Positions 4,729-13,736 of a DNA stretch of 14,170 nt are shown in pieces. Every line of letters begins with the position of its first letter. The stretch's first letter is position 1. Made by a program: the position numbers and the translations under genes. This stretch comes from Bacteroidales bacterium (GTDB taxonomy: Bacteria; Bacteroidota; Bacteroidia; Bacteroidales; Azobacteroidaceae): positions 1-14,170 of the forward strand of contig JAJBTS010000435.1 of assembly GCA_020860885.1 (NCBI GenBank), read 5' to 3'. Under the pieces are notes generated by a model. It did not search any database, was not told where the DNA came from, and was given only the letters and a program-made list of their open reading frames with translations.

Positions 4729-5226
4729 TTAAAAACCGAATACATATCCGATGGAATAAATTAAATTATCGGAATAAGGTGTGCGATTGTTTTGGATCAG
4801 ATCGTACGAAAGGGAAAAAGAAATACCTCCCAACGTTCCCATGGGAAGAATGACTCCGCCACCTATCAGGAAACAGGGAACCACTTCACTTTCAAAAGTA
4901 CCCCATGTCCTGTAAAGTTCCGGTTGAGCATGGATCTGAATGTATCTCCAGGGTCTTAACCGGGCATACAGGTTCATCCCTGCGTAATTTTCGGAAATAT
5001 TGTCGTAGCCGTAATAAGTATATCCGACTCCTACTCCTGCACTGAATTTCTCTGTGATGGCATAACCTACCTGAGGAGATATTTTCACCGATGAGGAGTT
5101 GCTTCCGAAAGATGCACCGAAAATTCCTCCGACCTCCAGTCTTCTTACATCAAATTTGTTTTGTGCACTTACAGATGCAACCGGTAAGAGCATCAAAAAA
5201 CATATCGCATATAAGATTTTTTTCAT
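4729..5226 (-). CDS. Small outer-membrane beta-barrel protein
   Basis: 165 residues. A clear Sec signal peptide (MKK, hydrophobic 4-17, SVSA) should be cut after Ala21. The mature part is made of alternating hydrophobic/polar strands rich in Gly, Tyr and aromatic residues (VGYAITEKFSAGVGVGYTYY, ISFSLSYDLIQ) and ends in Phe after a strand-like YSIGYVFGF, as expected for a substrate of the BAM assembly machinery. Size fits an 8-stranded barrel. No specific substrate or partner can be read from the sequence. ATG at 5226 lies 7 bp after the queF stop, so it probably belongs to the same transcript. It could be classed as a porin-family or OmpW/OmpA-barrel-like hypothetical; the exact family is unsure. 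Confidence 0.82.
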   Translation of the reverse strand: MKKILYAICFLMLLPVASVSAQNKFDVRRLEVGGIFGASFGSNSSSVKISPQVGYAITEKFSAGVGVGYTYYGYDNISENYAGMNLYARLRPWRYIQIHAQPELYRTWGTFESEVVPCFLIGGGVILPMGTLGGISFSLSYDLIQNNRTPYSDNLIYSIGYVFGF

Positions 5227-5233
5227 GATCTGT

Positions 5234-5698
5234 TTATTTGCTGTTGTACTCGAACAATCTTTTTTTAGCTAGTTCTTCAAATTCTGTGCCCGGTTTCCCG
5301 TAATTGCAGTAGGGATGTATGCTTATTCCTCCTCTGGGAGTAAATATCCCTGTTACTTCAATGTACTTAGGATCCATAAGAAGAACAAGATCTTTCATAA
5401 TGATGTTCACACAATCTTCATGAAAAGCTCCATGACTCCGGAAACTAAAAAGGTATAGCTTCAGACTTTTGCTTTCGATCATCTTTATATTGGGGATATA
5501 ATCGATATAGATCGTTGCGAAGTCGGGTTGCCCGGTTATGGGACAAAGACTGGTAAATTCCGGGCAGTTAAATCTTACCCAGTAATCATTTTCCTGATTT
5601 TTATTGATAAATGTTTCCAGAACTTCCGGAGCGTAGTCTTGTTTGTATTCCGTTTGATTGCCTAATAAAGTAAGTTCTTTGGTTTGTTCGTTGTTCAT
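5234..5698 (-). CDS. queF: NADPH-dependent 7-cyano-7-deazaguanine (preQ0) reductase
   Basis: Reduces the nitrile of preQ0 to the aminomethyl group of preQ1, the last free-base step before insertion into tRNA by Tgt in queuosine synthesis. At 154 residues it is the short, unimodular type (as in Bacillus) rather than the double-domain E. coli type. Visible landmarks: the thioimide-forming Cys52 in [13 protein letters not shown] with the general acid Asp59, the QueF motif ESKSLK (75-80) for NADPH binding, and FHED (92-95) in the substrate pocket. Its ATG (5698-5696) overlaps the queC stop TGA (5697-5695) as ATGA, so translation is probably coupled and both would follow the riboswitch candidate in front of queC. 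Confidence 0.96.
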
Positions 5699-6366
5699 GC
5701 CTGATATTTGTTTTTATTTTTTTCATATTCTTCCAGTCCGGCGTTTCTCAGTTTGCATGCCGGACAACTACCGCATCCTTCCGCTACTATTCCATTGTAG
5801 CAGGTGAGTGTATTGTTTTTAACAATTTCCAATACTCCCAGTTGATCAGCGAGTGCCCAGGTCTGCGCTTTGTTCAGCCACATCAGAGGTGTATGGATGA
5901 TAAATTGTTCGTCCATAGCCAGATTGAGAGTTACATTGGCGGAACGGATAAATGTATCCCGGCAATCGGGGTAGCCGCTGTAATCAGCTTGTGAGACTCC
6001 TGTCACCAGGTTTCTGATGCCGTAAGAGCGGGCTATTACAGACGCAAATGTAAGGAAGAATAAATTTCTTCCGGGAACAAAAGTGTTGGGGTAGGAGTCT
6101 TGCGGTTTGTCCTGGTCCATCACCATATCGTGATGAGTCAGGGAATTTTCAGCCAGATGGCTTATAACCGTGGCATCTAATACCTGGAAAGGAACTCCGG
6201 CATCCCGGGCGATTTTTTGTGCGATTTCTACTTCCTGGGAATGTCTTTGTCCGTAGGTAATACACAATGTCCGTACTTCTTTGAAGTGTTTGAGCGCCCA
6301 GAACAGGCAGGTTGTCGAATCTTGTCCTCCGGAATGAAGAACAAGAGCTGATTCATTGTTTTGCAT
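5695..6366 (-). CDS. queC: 7-cyano-7-deazaguanine synthase
   Basis: Converts 7-carboxy-7-deazaguanine to preQ0 with ATP and ammonia in the cytoplasm. The 223 residues are full length for the family. The PP-loop SGGQDS (12-17) binds ATP pyrophosphate, and the C-terminal zinc site is formed by Cys189, Cys198, Cys201 and Cys204 (GCGSCPAC region). Other family marks are TYGQRH (37-42), PGRN (98-101) and GYPDCRD (131-137). queF follows with a 4-bp overlap. Only 48 bp separate it from envC upstream, and that gap carries a preQ1-I riboswitch candidate whose 3' end lies 4 bases before the ATG. queD and queE are not in the window. Confidence 0.97.
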
Positions 6367-6370
6367 AATT

Positions 6371-6404
6371 CTTTGTTTTTTACGTGGTTAAGCTAAGATA
6401 CACG
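6371..6404 (-). promoter_or_regulatory. preQ1-I riboswitch candidate in front of queC
   Basis: Read on the minus strand, a 34-nt element can fold as the preQ1-I H-type pseudoknot. P1 pairs CGUG (6404-6401) with CACG (6386-6383). The loop between them holds CUUAG (6397-6393), then CUUAA, then a C (6387) in the position that pairs with preQ1. The A-rich tail UAAAAAACAAAG (6382-6371) closely matches the known UAAAAAACUAAG of the Bacillus element. P2 would pair CUUAG with CAAAG (6375-6371), with one A.A mismatch. The spacing from the loop G to the ligand-binding C equals that of the Bacillus type. P1 is only 4 bp, one shorter than usual. The P2 3' strand lies 4 bases before the queC ATG, so translational control is likely. 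I assigned it by hand alignment, not by a covariance model. Confidence 0.7.
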
Positions 6405-6414
6405 ATATGAATAA

Positions 6415-7641
6415 TTATTTATTGAGCCAGGGCTCAGGATCTATTTTTGCTTTATCTCTTCTCATTTCGAAATACAGGGTAGTGCCTTTCTCTACATCGT
6501 CGTATATTTTCCCTATCACCTGACCAGTAGTCACTTTATCTCCCTGTTTTACGGAAACACTTTCCAGGTAAGAATACAAAGTAAGATAATTACCGTGGCG
6601 GATGATGACAGAAGTTTGTGAGCCCGGAATCTGGAATACTTTCGTTACCACACCATTGAATACGGCGCGGGCCGAATTACCTTGGGTTGTACGTATCTCA
6701 ATACCGTTCTTATTGTATTTTATATGAGGCAGTCCTACATAGTTTTGCTGGCCAAAGCGACCGATGAGAGTGTAGCGTCCCTGAAGAGGGAAAGGAAGTT
6801 TTCCTTTATTGGAGGCAAAGTCGGCCGCTAACTTTTGCTCTTCTTTGGTCATGGCATACCCGTCTTTGGTTGCAGCCTGCCGCAGTCCGGGTTTGGCAGC
6901 CGCTTCTTTTCTGGAAGCTTCTATCTCAGCCTGTATTACACGGTCAATTTCTTTATCCAAGGCGTCGGCTTGTTTTTTCTTTTTAGCCAGGTCTGCCTGC
7001 AATTGTTTCGAGTTTTTCTGAAGATGACTGATTTCTTTTTGTATTTCCACTTCTTCTTTCTGCAACTGTTCTTCTTCTGTTTTCCTTTGTTGGGATATGT
7101 TTTGCTTTTGTACTTTATCGCTTTCCAAAGCGCTCTTTTCAGCCTGAATTATTTGTTGCTGGGCAACGATTTCATAGGCCTGGGTTTTCTGCCAACCGGA
7201 GTATTTCTTCAGATAGAATAGTCTTCGTAGAGATTGTGCAAAATCGTCGGCCGATAAAACAAACAACAAATGATTCTGTGAATCCTTATTTCTATACATC
7301 TTTCTGACCGAAACAGCGTATTTGTCTTGTTTGGACTTAAAATCTTTTTCCAGATCACGGATCCTTAATTCTTTTACACGAATATTGTTATCCATTTCCT
7401 TAATTTCTTCAGCCAGAATTTTCAAAAGATTCCTCTGTGCTTTTAGCTTTTCATTCACTATGGTAACATTGTTAAGATTCTGTCCCAGCACTTTTTGAGT
7501 CTTTTTTATTTCTCCATCTAGAAACTTAATTTCATTCAATGTCTGTTCTTTCTCTTTCTTTAGTTCCTGTATCTTTACAGAATCCGCAGAAAGTGTGAAT
7601 ATAGAAGTGATCAGTAATAAAACAATAACCTTTATTCTCAT
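6415..7641 (-). CDS. EnvC-like murein hydrolase activator (coiled coil + degenerate LytM/M23 domain)
   Basis: Periplasmic protein expected to switch on N-acetylmuramyl-L-alanine amidases during cell separation. 408 residues: Sec signal peptide (1-18, cut near SA-DS), long coiled coils (about 22-110 and 155-250, rich in Lys, Glu and Gln), and a C-terminal LytM/M23 fold (about 285-400). The metal ligands of active M23 peptidases are replaced: the HxxxD position reads NGIE (Asn312, Glu315), and the HxH position reads LYFE (Tyr390). This matches EnvC-type activators that no longer bind zinc, rather than a working endopeptidase. ATG at 7641 overlaps the stop of the upstream DUF4292 gene as ATGA, giving likely translational coupling. 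The order TPR, DUF4292, EnvC is familiar from other Bacteroidales. Confidence 0.92.
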   Translation of the reverse strand: MRIKVIVLLLITSIFTLSADSVKIQELKKEKEQTLNEIKFLDGEIKKTQKVLGQNLNNVTIVNEKLKAQRNLLKILAEEIKEMDNNIRVKELRIRDLEKDFKSKQDKYAVSVRKMYRNKDSQNHLLFVLSADDFAQSLRRLFYLKKYSGWQKTQAYEIVAQQQIIQAEKSALESDKVQKQNISQQRKTEEEQLQKEEVEIQKEISHLQKNSKQLQADLAKKKKQADALDKEIDRVIQAEIEASRKEAAAKPGLRQAATKDGYAMTKEEQKLAADFASNKGKLPFPLQGRYTLIGRFGQQNYVGLPHIKYNKNGIEIRTTQGNSARAVFNGVVTKVFQIPGSQTSVIIRHGNYLTLYSYLESVSVKQGDKVTTGQVIGKIYDDVEKGTTLYFEMRRDKAKIDPEPWLNK

Positions 7642-8507
7642 AATAACTTCTTCATGAGGTTAATAACCTGCTGTAAAGTGATTTGTTTGTATTTGTCAGG
7701 AATCCTGTAATCTACATTAAAAGTAGAATTAACATCCACCGATCTGAAAGCGAGGTTTACATTGTAAGATTTATCCGGGATAGATAAAGAAAATTTCATG
7801 AGCATAGGAAAATCTTTTTTGTTGGAGGTTAATCCCCAATCGGTATAGTCACATAATAGATTGGCTTTCAACCTTTCCTGGCTCATCTGAGTTTCCTGGA
7901 TCCTGTTTGTATAATTGCTGGTAAAAGCGTATTGTATATTTTGCCTGTCCGTATTGCTGATTTTAACCTCATAATCATTTTCCATGACACGGAAAGAATT
8001 AAAATCTCTGGCAGTAACTTCTTTTTTTCCGGCAATAAACAATTGATTGGTAAGCATGGCTTCCAAACTATAGTAATCGAAGTCCAAAGGAACTTTCATT
8101 TTAATACTTTGCATAGACTCTTCCAGATACTGTTTGTTGATCCGGTCTATGATAATCACTTTGTCGGGGGTAATTAAAACTTTGAAAGCTTCGGTACCCA
8201 GGATAGGAACACGTAAAGATAGCTGTATCACTTCATTTTTCCGGATACGGAGTTGGGCATCTACGGAAACTTCTTTCGATTTGTTGCCTCCTTTAACCGT
8301 GAATTTTAAGTTGGATGAGATTGTATTGTAATTAATACCCGATTGGATGATCCTGTTTAATCTCTCTTCTTTACTTACTTTTTCAAGTGCAACCACATTC
8401 GCTTCCGTTTCTTTGCTGCTCTTACATCCTGACCATACAACGATAGATAAAAATAATAGGATGATTCCTGTCTTACTGATAAAATGTATATATTGCTTAC
8501 TCTTCAT
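7638..8507 (-). CDS. DUF4292 family lipoprotein
   Basis: 289 residues. The N-terminus has a basic start, a hydrophobic core (14-25) and a lipobox-like VWSGC with Cys28. Trp at position -3 is unusual for a lipobox, but the following CKSSKE is typical of exported Bacteroidota lipoproteins. The mature part is beta-rich (FTVKGGNKSKEVSVDAQLRI, LRVPILGTEAFKVLITPDKV), consistent with DUF4292, a family with a LolA/LolB-like incomplete barrel. The molecular role of the family is not established; a part in envelope or lipoprotein handling is inference from fold and neighbours. Its ATG lies inside the last codons of the TPR gene (11-bp overlap) and its stop overlaps the envC start, so the three are translated as a coupled group. 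Confidence 0.85.
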   Translation of the reverse strand: MKSKQYIHFISKTGIILLFLSIVVWSGCKSSKETEANVVALEKVSKEERLNRIIQSGINYNTISSNLKFTVKGGNKSKEVSVDAQLRIRKNEVIQLSLRVPILGTEAFKVLITPDKVIIIDRINKQYLEESMQSIKMKVPLDFDYYSLEAMLTNQLFIAGKKEVTARDFNSFRVMENDYEVKISNTDRQNIQYAFTSNYTNRIQETQMSQERLKANLLCDYTDWGLTSNKKDFPMLMKFSLSIPDKSYNVNLAFRSVDVNSTFNVDYRIPDKYKQITLQQVINLMKKLL

Positions 8508-10838: not shown

Positions 10839-12242
10839 ATGAAAATAGCTTTTCATGGAGCAGCAAGAACTGTTACAGGCAGCAAACATCTTATTACGTT
10901 AAATAACGGCAAAAAAATATTGTTGGATTGCGGAATGTTTCAGGGAATGGGGCCTCAGACCACTCCCCTGAATCAGAATTTCGGATTCGATCCCCAGGAA
11001 GTATCCTGCGTATTCCTTTCTCATGCGCATATAGACCATTCCGGTTTATTGCCCAAGTTAGTAAAGGAAGGTTTTAACGGGGAAATTTACGCTACTCCGG
11101 CTACCGTGGATGTGGCTCAGGTATTATTAAAAGATTCAGCTTACATACAAAAACAGGATATCACTTATCTAAATAAAAAGAGGAAAGAACAAGGACGGGA
11201 ATTGTTGGAGCCGTTGTATACAGAGCAAGATGTTGAAAAAACACTGGAATTATTTGTGCCTGTTCCTTATGGGAAAAAAGTAACCCGGGACGAAAACATA
11301 AGTTTCCGGTTTTACGATGTAGGCCATATTATCGGAAGCGCTACAACTTATTTAACGTTGAAGGAAGATAACAAAATAACCACCCTGGCATACAGCGGAG
11401 ATGTCGGAAGATACAGTGACCCCATCTTACATTCCCCGCAGGTTTTTCCTCAGGCCGATTATATAATTATCGAATCGACGTATGGTAATAAATTGCATTT
11501 ACCTATCGAATCCTATGCGGAAGATCTTTACGATAATATTATGGAAACCTGTATCGGGAAAAAAGGTAAGCTGATTATTCCGGCTTTCAGTGTGGGAAGG
11601 ACACAAGAAGTATTGTATGGGTTGAACGACCTGGAAATAGAAAAGAGACTGCCGGATATTAAGTATTATCTGGATAGTCCCATGTCTACTAAAGTTACGG
11701 ATATAGTAAAACAACATCCGGAGTCTTTTAACCGGTCTGTACAGAAATTGATGCTTACCGATAAAGATCCTTTCAGTTTCAAAGGCTTGAAATATATAGC
11801 GGATAAGAGAGAGTCGCAGGCATTGAACTCAGATCATTCGCCGATGGTGATCATCTCCGCTTCCGGAATGGCTGAAGCAGGGCGTGTAAAGCATCATATT
11901 GCGAACAGTATAGAGAATTGGCGCAATACGATTTTATTGATCGGTTATTGCGAACCTCAGTCGTTGGGAGGCCGTCTGAAGCTGCATCCGGAAACTGTAA
12001 CTATATTCGGTAAACCTTTTAATGTTAAAGCCGGCATTAAGTCTATAGACTCTATGAGTGCTCATGCCGACTACAACGATCTAAGCCAGTATCTGGCTAA
12101 TCAGGATCCACAGGAGGTGAAACAGGTATTTGTCGTACATGGGGAACCGGAAGTTCAGGCTGAATTCAAAAGAAGATTGAATAAGAAAGGTTTTAAGGAT
12201 GTAATCATCCCGGAAATACACCAGGAGTTCGGACTTTCCTGA
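10839..12242 (+). CDS. Beta-CASP metallo-beta-lactamase RNA nuclease
   Basis: Cytoplasmic, zinc-dependent ribonuclease of the beta-CASP group, related to CPSF73-like and Thermus TTHA0252-type enzymes. 467 residues. Metallo-beta-lactamase motifs: LLDCG (Asp30), HAHIDH (62-67), His163 in DVGHIIGSA and Asp188 in YSGDVG. Beta-CASP part: motif A with Glu212 in IESTYG, then ISASGMAEAGRVKHH (motif B, His352 or 353). The C-terminal RNA-specificity part has SAHAD (His409) and VVHGEP (His434). All metal ligands appear present, so it should be active. It lacks the N-terminal KH domains of the archaeal relatives and is shorter than RNase J. It stands alone as a single gene with its own promoter and a repeat-built terminator. 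The specific RNA targets cannot be read from sequence. Confidence 0.93.
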   Translation: MKIAFHGAARTVTGSKHLITLNNGKKILLDCGMFQGMGPQTTPLNQNFGFDPQEVSCVFLSHAHIDHSGLLPKLVKEGFNGEIYATPATVDVAQVLLKDSAYIQKQDITYLNKKRKEQGRELLEPLYTEQDVEKTLELFVPVPYGKKVTRDENISFRFYDVGHIIGSATTYLTLKEDNKITTLAYSGDVGRYSDPILHSPQVFPQADYIIIESTYGNKLHLPIESYAEDLYDNIMETCIGKKGKLIIPAFSVGRTQEVLYGLNDLEIEKRLPDIKYYLDSPMSTKVTDIVKQHPESFNRSVQKLMLTDKDPFSFKGLKYIADKRESQALNSDHSPMVIISASGMAEAGRVKHHIANSIENWRNTILLIGYCEPQSLGGRLKLHPETVTIFGKPFNVKAGIKSIDSMSAHADYNDLSQYLANQDPQEVKQVFVVHGEPEVQAEFKRRLNKKGFKDVIIPEIHQEFGLS

Positions 12243-12286: not shown

Positions 12287-12370
12287 AGTCCGGAAATTTA
12301 TTTTCTGAGTCTGAAAATATTTTTTTAGACTCTAAAGATATTTTTTCAGACTCAGAAAGTTTACTTCCGC
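12287..12370. repeat. Four tandem 21-bp repeats, AT-rich
   Basis: Units at 12287-12307, 12308-12328, 12329-12349 and 12350-12370 are each exactly 21 bp. Each opens with AGTC or ACTC, then a purine-rich part, then a T-run: for example AGTCCGGAAATTTATTTTCT(G), AGTCTGAAAATATTTTTTTA(G) and ACTCTAAAGATATTTTTTCA(G). A decayed fifth unit may follow at 12371. They lie between the convergent nuclease and MATE genes and include the hairpin noted separately. Confidence 0.75.
12302..12358. terminator. Terminator-like hairpin built from the 21-bp repeats
   Basis: TTTCTGAGTCTGAAAA (12302-12317) is the exact reverse complement of TTTTCAGACTCAGAAA (12343-12358), a 16-bp stem with a 25-nt loop. The loop holds TAGACTC, which can instead pair with GAGTC of the first arm, giving a shorter alternative hairpin. 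Its place between two convergent genes fits a two-way terminator, although there is no classic T-run directly after the long stem. Confidence 0.55.
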
Positions 12371-12415: not shown

Positions 12416-13736
12416 TTATAAGGCTTTATTTTGCCATTTGTTCCTTTTCAGAAAGATTAAGGACAATGCAAGCAATACAACAACGTACAACTGTTCGGCA
12501 GTCCAGTAAAACGCCAGAGGTATGTTTGCAGAACGCGACAGCACAAAGAGATAGAGCAGATAGATCGTAATATTTATCATCTGGAATATAAATGCTATTC
12601 GTGTATTTCCTGTTCCGATTACCGTATTGCAATATATATAAGCCGGTACGGAAATAATAAATGTGGAGAGCATCACACAAAAGGGATAAAAAGCTGTCCG
12701 GACAACTGCCGTATCATTTGTAAACAATCCCAAAAGACTATCTGAAAAAATAAAGGCCAATACTATAAGCGGAATACCTATTGCATAATTCAACGCTAGG
12801 ATGCGTCGGCAAGCCGGCATCACTTGTGCTGCTCGTTTGGCTCCGATAAGGTTGCTCACCAGCGAAATCGTAGTTGTGGCAAAGGAGTTGACAATTACAA
12901 AAAAGAGCATCGAAATACTCCTTACTACGTTTGCGGCAGCCAGTTCGCATTCTCCTAAATGTTCAATCGCAACAAAGAAAAGAAACCATGGTGCGATACA
13001 AAAAAAGGATCGTACCATAGTCCATATGGATATATTTAGAAGATGGAGGGAGAGCTTAAAATCAAATACAGGACGCAATCCATACTGTTTTGAGTCTGTG
13101 TATTTCCACATATACAATGCCAGAAACAATAAGCCGATAAATCCGGCAAGCGAAGAACCGATAGCAGCCCCGCTAATCCCTAATCGGGGGGAATCCTGCT
13201 TTCCCAAAAATCAGTAAATAATTGAAGACGATATTGCATACTACCATAACAAGAGAGTTGGCAGTAAGAATTTTCGTTTGGGTTATTCCAATAAAATAGG
13301 CACGGATCGCTAAAAGCGGAAAGGCAAACAGATAACTATAATCCCGCCATTGTATATATTCTATAGTGGCCTGATATACATTATCCGAAGAAATTACCAT
13401 GCGAAGCAATAGAGGCGAAAAAAGTTTGGACAAGACGAAAACGATAACAGCAAATGCGGATAGAAAAATTAGTCCCTGATAAAATACTTTACCAATATCT
13501 TTGTATCGTTTTTCTCCGTTTCGTCTTGCTATTAACACCTGTACTCCGAGACTAAAACCGAAACCGAGCATATAAATGGCGGTATAATACATTGTGGCCA
13601 GTGCGGAAGCTCCTAAGTCTATTTGACTGACGTGACCCAGAAAAATGGAGTCGGTTAGGTTAATCAACTGTTCCATGAGCAGGCTCACCATTATGGGTAA
13701 GTTGATAAGCCAGATTTGTTTGTATGTATAGTTCAT
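12416..13736 (-). pseudogene. MATE-family efflux transporter, split by a +1 frameshift in a C6 run
   Basis: Inner-membrane multidrug/toxin exporter of the MATE family, normally 12 helices driven by Na+ or H+. The N-terminal half starts at 13736 (MNYTYKQIWLINLPIMVSLL, then EQLINLTDSIFLGHVS, the typical first helix and loop) and runs to LIFGKAGFP, after which the frame goes out and stops at 13175-13173. The C-terminal half continues in another frame as RLGISGAAIGSSLAGF to the stop at 12418-12416. The junction is a run of six C on the minus strand (13191-13186). With five C it would read GFPRLGIS and give about 439 residues, a normal MATE length. So one extra base breaks an otherwise intact gene. 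A sequence error, a recent mutation and slipped-strand phase variation remain possible. The leader carries a palindrome and a structured element. Confidence 0.9.

Follow-up and report, generated by a model that had tools for sequence, protein, structure and literature searches.

The stretch of DNA studied here, called the window, comprises positions 1 to 14,170 of contig JAJBTS010000435.1 from a Bacteroidales bacterium of the family Azobacteroidaceae (GCA_020860885.1; 14,170 nt). On its minus strand a gene for an envC-like M23 peptidase is followed by queC (7-cyano-7-deazaguanine synthase) and queF (preQ1 synthase), and a 34-nt element fills the gap between envC and queC (Table 1), the mid-operon position that the preliminary description of this locus had given it. 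The envC-like gene scored 75.3 bits against NF008644 (EnvC), under the cut-off of 270 for that model. Homologs of tgt and of PTPS (QueD-like) were detected in the genome (92% complete); no match was found in it to yhhQ (TIGR00697), the gene of a queuosine-precursor transporter. The small OMP-like ORF at 4729-5226 was set aside as a functional partner: outside the window it lies beside queF in one (L039) of 46 queC loci, although many of these loci extend no more than about 1.5 kb from queC. Farther along the window, a long inverted repeat at 12302-12358 (TTTCTGAGTCTGAAAAT / TTTTCAGACTCAGAAA) separates the convergent gene 10839-12242 from the MatE ORFs and is perhaps a bidirectional terminator. 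A MATE transporter (12416-13736) is apparently split into the overlapping ORFs 13173-13736 and 12416-13207, both matching PF01554; a frameshift or an assembly error is possible.

Table 1. Genes and parts of the element on the minus strand of the window. Roles of the ligand-reading bases follow the available part of PMC11625349.
Feature	Position	Strand	Remarks
envC-like M23 peptidase	6415..7641	minus	PF01551, 70.5 bits; upstream gene
preQ1-I-like element	6404-6371	minus	34 nt; ends 4 nt ahead of queC ATG
P1 5' strand CGTG	6401..6404	minus	4 bp; G6401 is the pocket-floor G
L1 TAT	6398..6400	minus	T6400, counterpart of the preQ1-reading U
P2 5' strand CTTAG	6393..6397	minus	
Specificity cytosine	6387	minus	A6388 before it gives AC, the type II mark
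P1 3' strand CACG	6383..6386	minus	
T between P1 3' strand and A6 tract	6382	minus	
A6 tract of L3	6376..6381	minus	-10 to -15 from queC ATG
Last A of A6 tract	6376	minus	Counterpart of the ligand-reading A
P2 3' strand CAAAG	6371..6375	minus	-5 to -9 from queC ATG
Spacer AATT	6367..6370	minus	4 nt; A at -3
queC ATG	6366-6364	minus	
queC	5695..6366	minus	TIGR00364, 243.7 bits; PF06508; adjoins element
queF	5234..5698	minus	TIGR03139, 166.8 bits; 4-nt overlap with queC end

Ten nucleotides, the 34-nt element, and AATT together make up the 48-nt gap, and the envC stop codon (6417-6415) is located 10 nt upstream of P1. The element reads CGTG TAT CTTAG CTTAA C CACG T AAAAAA CAAAG, exactly as first reported for 6371..6404. 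It can be arranged as an H-type pseudoknot of P1 and P2, with all four P1 pairs canonical and four of five in P2 (C6375-G6393, A6373-U6395, A6372-U6396, and G6371-C6397, with an A6374.A6394 mismatch). Counterparts of the class I contacts are present, namely the specificity C, the U after the P1 5' strand, the G-C floor, and the A that ends L3, and the place of the element ahead of queC-queF agrees with the association of this class with queuosine synthesis or uptake. The AC (A6388 C6387) before the P1 3' strand and T6400 A6399, instead of UU, after P1 are features of type II. The preQ1-I pseudoknot proposed from P1, loop spacing, the A6-C tail, and P2 is thus upheld by anatomy and by the comparison described below. 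A short P1 and the A.A mismatch had been taken as signs of slight divergence; both are present, but the 4-bp P1 is common to the relatives found. The full motif, in a pattern written after the relatives were known, was located a single time in the window when up to three mismatches were allowed, and in none of 200 shuffles. Nested folding of the gap was no better than that of shuffles (MFE z-score 0.65).

The library model does not recognize this element. Neither the whole window nor 6340-6440 by itself yielded a match to RF00522 at E<=10, and the covariance search of minus-strand 6365-6410 that had been suggested as a check gave none. A match of at least 39 bits, one of the marks of class I, is therefore lacking; the shortfall lies with the library model and not with the fold, and was not deemed disqualifying. 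Over the window's own genome RF00522 returned 11 weak matches (E 1.4-7.8), none of them in the gap. None of the 393 sampled genomes of the order gave a match at its cut-off, against one of 14 control genomes (Bacillus subtilis), and none of 20 hand-chosen loci bearing the new elements had a PreQ1 match at E<=10. Identity with preQ1-II or preQ1-III (RF01054, RF02680), which are larger HLout pseudoknots, was rejected, with no Rfam match of any kind in 6340-6440. The preliminary description had named a missing model match, together with missing conservation, as evidence against a riboswitch. The match to RF00522 is indeed absent; conservation, however, is present, in compensatory changes of P1 and P2 and in the recurrence of the element in 9 of 45 family genomes.

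Ten near-identical elements were found in the regions upstream of queC in 46 loci, and covariance model R1 was built from their eight distinct sequences. Against the 45 family genomes R1 was positive in nine at 51-62 bits, always directly before queC, and the next best match reached 21.1 bits, which argues against chance. The choice of queC (confirmed by TIGR00364) as the target is supported by this comparison. On the 46 queC loci R1 returned the same ten elements at 51-62 bits, then L052 (33 bits) and L050 (27 bits), in which the element precedes yhhQ, and four further matches at 17.1 bits or less.

The same anatomy was seen with three types of loop in the 393 genomes sampled from the order. 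The alpha type, to which the window copy belongs, has CTTAG/CAAAG; the beta type has CTTG/CAAG; and in the gamma type TTCYAG is combined with CAGGA or CAAGA. The beta model R2 was positive in 54 of the 393 at E<=0.01, with at least one spurious match (L284, G326). Across the phylum, which was searched with the alpha/gamma model R3 only, seven of 395 genomes were positive at E<=0.02, and two of these matches (L260 in G461, L263 in G581) look like chance. Every search across the order or the phylum, that with RF00522 included, scored only 15-18 candidates per genome under strict filters, so that elements can be missed. Five of 52 covariance-model matches (L283, L284, L260, L263, and L109) were set aside as having no recognized queC or yhhQ, and 47 were kept. 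A pattern scan of species genomes with P1 fixed as CGTG/CACG gave at least 119 stretches. Among the matches listed (81 in 80 loci), 75 stand before queC (15) or yhhQ (60), one before a DUF5020 gene, and five have no called gene, three of them at the end of the fetched stretch; yhhQ was called from an N-terminal motif or by eye, and two calls were verified as TIGR00697/PF02592. By title, the records among the matches listed are mostly Bacteroidales or wider Bacteroidota. The element also precedes yhhQ in Mailhella, in Avidesulfovibrio, and in a Patescibacteria-titled record (L168); the Mailhella and Avidesulfovibrio copies reflect transfer or contamination. Matches in Babeliaceae (L148) and Paraburkholderia (L155), where no gene was called, are probably due to chance. 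Viral contigs gave no match of the pattern.

Some copies differ in setting or number. The element before the DUF5020 gene (L174, minus 2021-2052) has P2 CTAG/CTAG; the protein (PF16412) could, at a guess, be an outer-membrane uptake protein for queuosine precursors. In L244, L249, L272, and L273 the copies lie 67-84 nt upstream of queC, no clear terminator was seen in a plain fold of these leaders, and three of the four genomes (G112, G104, G301) hold a second copy before yhhQ. In an uncultured Prevotellaceae (L218, CAMVIM010000003.1, minus about 1290-1380) three tandem preQ1-I-like units stand directly before yhhQ. Their P1 helices, read by eye, are CGAG/CTCG, CGTG/CACG, and CGAG/CTCG; the model finds the second and third units, and by simple pairing P2 is intact in the first and third and not in the middle one. 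Two tandem units each were observed at the end of the fetched stretch in L181 (5710-5772) and L202 (1-55), both uncultured Mailhella by title.

The pairing was followed in alignment A6, which holds 21 relatives. Hand-picked for variety, a choice that favors paired variants, they had 98.8% of 168 P1 and P2 cells paired, against at most 69.5% when slid, and five of the eight pairs were changed on both sides. In P1, C-G is replaced by A-U and G-C, and U-A by A-U and G-C, and two of the four pairs are constant throughout A6; in P2, both-sided changes were seen in three of four pairs. Compensatory changes in related genomes, which had been proposed as a further check, were therefore found in both helices of these relatives. 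Among 112 distinct elements, in which pairing was demanded, P1 is CGTG/CACG in 103, AGTG/CACT in four, CGAG/CTCG in four, and AGAG/CTCT in one. In the 47 matches before queC or yhhQ, obtained with models that were built with P1 paired and so favor pairing, P1 is CGTG/CACG in 40, changed in seven, and broken in none (42 were parsed with four Watson-Crick pairs; L286, L241, L246, L248, and L258 were read by eye). When the P2 strands of the 112 elements were re-dealt, with the register re-chosen each time, the mean score fell from the observed 3.04 to 2.09 +/- 0.08, with a maximum of 2.38 in 1000 shuffles. A permutation over unique types, whose registers had been picked on the real pairs, was given no weight. 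In A6 no change was seen in the U, C, and A that contact the ligand or in the G-C floor, and the specificity C is invariant also in alignments A2 and A5. An element before queC in L298, GGGG TACTTGAAAAC CCCC ... CAAGG (RF00522 24.4 bits), combines a beta-type loop with an unrelated P1 and links the Bacteroidales group to classical type II.

Among known switches, the type II element of Thermoanaerobacter tengcongensis (Tte) shares with the window an H-type pseudoknot, AC before the P1 3' strand, a single specificity C, an A-rich L3, a P2 that is only partly canonical, and a translational placement. The two differ in P1, which in the window group has 4 bp and is mostly CGUG/CACG, and in the hairpin that abuts P1 in many relatives, although not in the window copy. 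The type II switch of Bacillus subtilis has the queCDEF operon as its target, as queC is in the window, and has an A6-C tail as well; it acts by transcription termination, whereas the window element lies only 4 nt from the ATG. Type I members have UC before the P1 3' strand and UU after P1, where the window has AC and UA. Type I-like AGACAG..CTGTCT elements were observed in the order as well (L287, L288, L289, L290, L291, L293, L295, and L296); they score 25.5-30.4 bits with RF00522 (<39), often have longer leaders, and in seven of eight, L291 being the exception, stand ahead of a queC-like ORF with SGGLDS, read by eye. Both types occur in Bacteroidota according to the accessible part of a 2024 review (PMC11625349), and PMC5372724, in the text available, places yhhQ among the genes that preQ1 riboswitches control in different bacteria.

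Three other explanations were weighed against a preQ1 switch. The same fold in the same operon position could have another 7-deazaguanine as its natural ligand, such as preQ0, the product of the QueC enzyme encoded by the first target gene. The pocket reads a guanine-like face, and the review text available describes Tte structures with preQ0 too (PMC11625349). However, the floor G, which in all class I types covered there bonds the 7-aminomethyl group of preQ1, is invariant in A6, and queF is in the same operon; we regard another ligand as improbable. Even less credit can be given to the CGTG...CACG palindrome as a DNA operator or RNA hairpin bound by a regulator of queuosine genes. P1 is nearly constant, more so than pairing alone would demand, yet the distance between its arms varies, the arms change together, P2 covaries outside the palindrome, and the tail C stands 3-14 nt from the start codon in 70 of 72 matches listed. 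A tail that, being rich in A, simply enhances translation in a phylum lacking Shine-Dalgarno sequences, with incidental pairing, would suit an A6 tract sitting where Bacteroidetes genes favor adenines, but is similarly hard to credit, since it accounts neither for the compensatory changes nor for a conserved loop (CTTG, CTTAG, or CYAG, then AC) nor for the concentration before queC and yhhQ.

Stand-alone and embedded copies were compared. In 53 of 75 relatives, which are not independent, a strong hairpin ends no more than 4 nt from P1, versus 10.6% of single-base shuffles. In 167 distinct contexts, at a lower threshold and a gap of at most 2 nt, 116 had a hairpin, 89 of these abutting P1. A further 615 rows classed as unpaired were left out; those inspected were alternative registers at the same sites or chance matches within genes. 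Of the 120 copies with no long ORF close upstream, 86 have a TAnnTTTG box, the Bacteroidetes -7 motif, at a distance of up to 60 nt, compared with 3.3% of shuffles, and 82 have a hairpin, compared with 16%. Copies embedded by a loose rule (an ORF of at least 110 codons ending within 120 nt upstream) were much like those 120, with a promoter box in 29 of 42 and a hairpin in 30 of 42, and most copies behind an ORF thus seem to have their own promoter. The contrast with stand-alone copies is confined to five envC-embedded ones (the window and L012-L015), in which neither a TAnnTTTG box nor a strong hairpin was found; the earlier remark that no promoter box precedes the element holds for all five. 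A sigma-70 and terminator scan of 5000-8000 gave no site within the gap, with a promoter model that does not cover Bacteroidetes promoters. A second embedding was detected in Tannerellaceae (L133, L227, and L229), where the element follows a phosphoglycerate mutase gene (NF010713, 420 bits for the L229 protein; L133 and L227 by eye) at a distance of 12 nt and has yhhQ behind it, with no box and with a hairpin that overlaps the mutase stop codon.

Among family queC loci with an envC homolog in the fetched stretch, the element is present in five of 22 and absent from 17, which suggests that the regulation is dispensable and has been kept or lost piecemeal. The queC tree is poorly resolved inside the genus; at least three trait changes are forced by starred branches, and six by the tree itself, pointing to scattered loss or gain and not to one clade. 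In the envC-queC gap of L010 a simple hairpin (GAGTTGACGAAAGC..TTTTGTCGACTC) takes the place of the element.

Translation is the natural control step, because no terminator fits into the 4 nt between element and ATG. In their available parts, two studies report that Bacteroidetes mRNAs are without Shine-Dalgarno sequences (PMC6847099), that A residues at -3 and -6 and in the stretch from about -11 to -14 are linked to efficient initiation (PMC6847099, PMC7366714), and that replacement of -14 to -11 in a Flavobacterium johnsoniae reporter led to a 60-90% drop (PMC6847099). In a phylum of this kind, control probably acts at the A-rich region used for initiation. Adenines occur in the window copy at -3, -6, and -10 to -15 relative to the queC ATG, and among the matches listed an A was found at -11 in 68 of 70 elements and at -12 in 67 of 70. 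Translational control, as originally proposed, gains support from this comparison: no room is left for a terminator, and the A-rich -11/-12 region is kept in relatives. In its available text PMC11625349 describes Tte as burying two Shine-Dalgarno bases; the CAAAG of the window is no such sequence. Folding upon ligand binding would here conceal the very signal for initiation. Not all of the group fits this picture, as gamma-type relatives (CAGGAG) have a Shine-Dalgarno-like string near the ATG.

Anatomy and comparison together make it very probable that the element is a preQ1-I type II riboswitch of a Bacteroidales group missed by RF00522. For such a switch inside this operon, with the ligand, the direction of control, the translational step, and the coupling of queF that we infer, we estimate a probability of about 0.85. 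When preQ1, the product of QueF, is plentiful, it would sit on the floor that a G-C pair of P1 provides, paired with C6387 and recognized by U6400 and A6376, and P2 would close between CTTAG and the tail CAAAG. This closure would bury the A6 tract along with everything from -5 to -15 relative to the queC ATG, the Bacteroidetes stand-in for a Shine-Dalgarno sequence, lowering queC initiation and, by coupling, that of the overlapping queF. With scarce preQ1 the tail would be free and queC translated; envC would be unaffected by the switch. A ribosome finishing envC would briefly cover P1, which starts so close behind the envC stop that the switch may also act on re-initiation.

The preQ1-I class and both target genes, queC and yhhQ, are already known. 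What seems to be new is a group with a Shine-Dalgarno-free platform, a hairpin abutting P1 in relatives, mid-operon use, and tandem copies; no earlier description of it was found in the literature searched. More tentatively, at somewhat less than even odds for the whole, we propose that the window copy represents a Bacteroidales-wide subgroup that Rfam does not recognize and whose L3 adenine tract serves both as ligand pocket and as the A-rich initiation signal of mRNAs without Shine-Dalgarno sequences. Its members could have a 5' hairpin stacked on P1, could sit between unrelated genes and control the downstream ones only, and could be repeated in tandems of two or three units.

The available part of the 2024 review names riboswitches in Shine-Dalgarno-less mRNAs as a future challenge and predicts their existence (PMC11625349). 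The group offers natural test cases for riboswitches in a phylum without Shine-Dalgarno sequences, and by record title its cultured hosts include Dysgonomonas, Odoribacter, Parabacteroides, and Draconibacterium. It also reveals a probable form of preQ1 control to which RF00522 is blind and, in the window, an operon in which one riboswitch would shut off the distal genes only.
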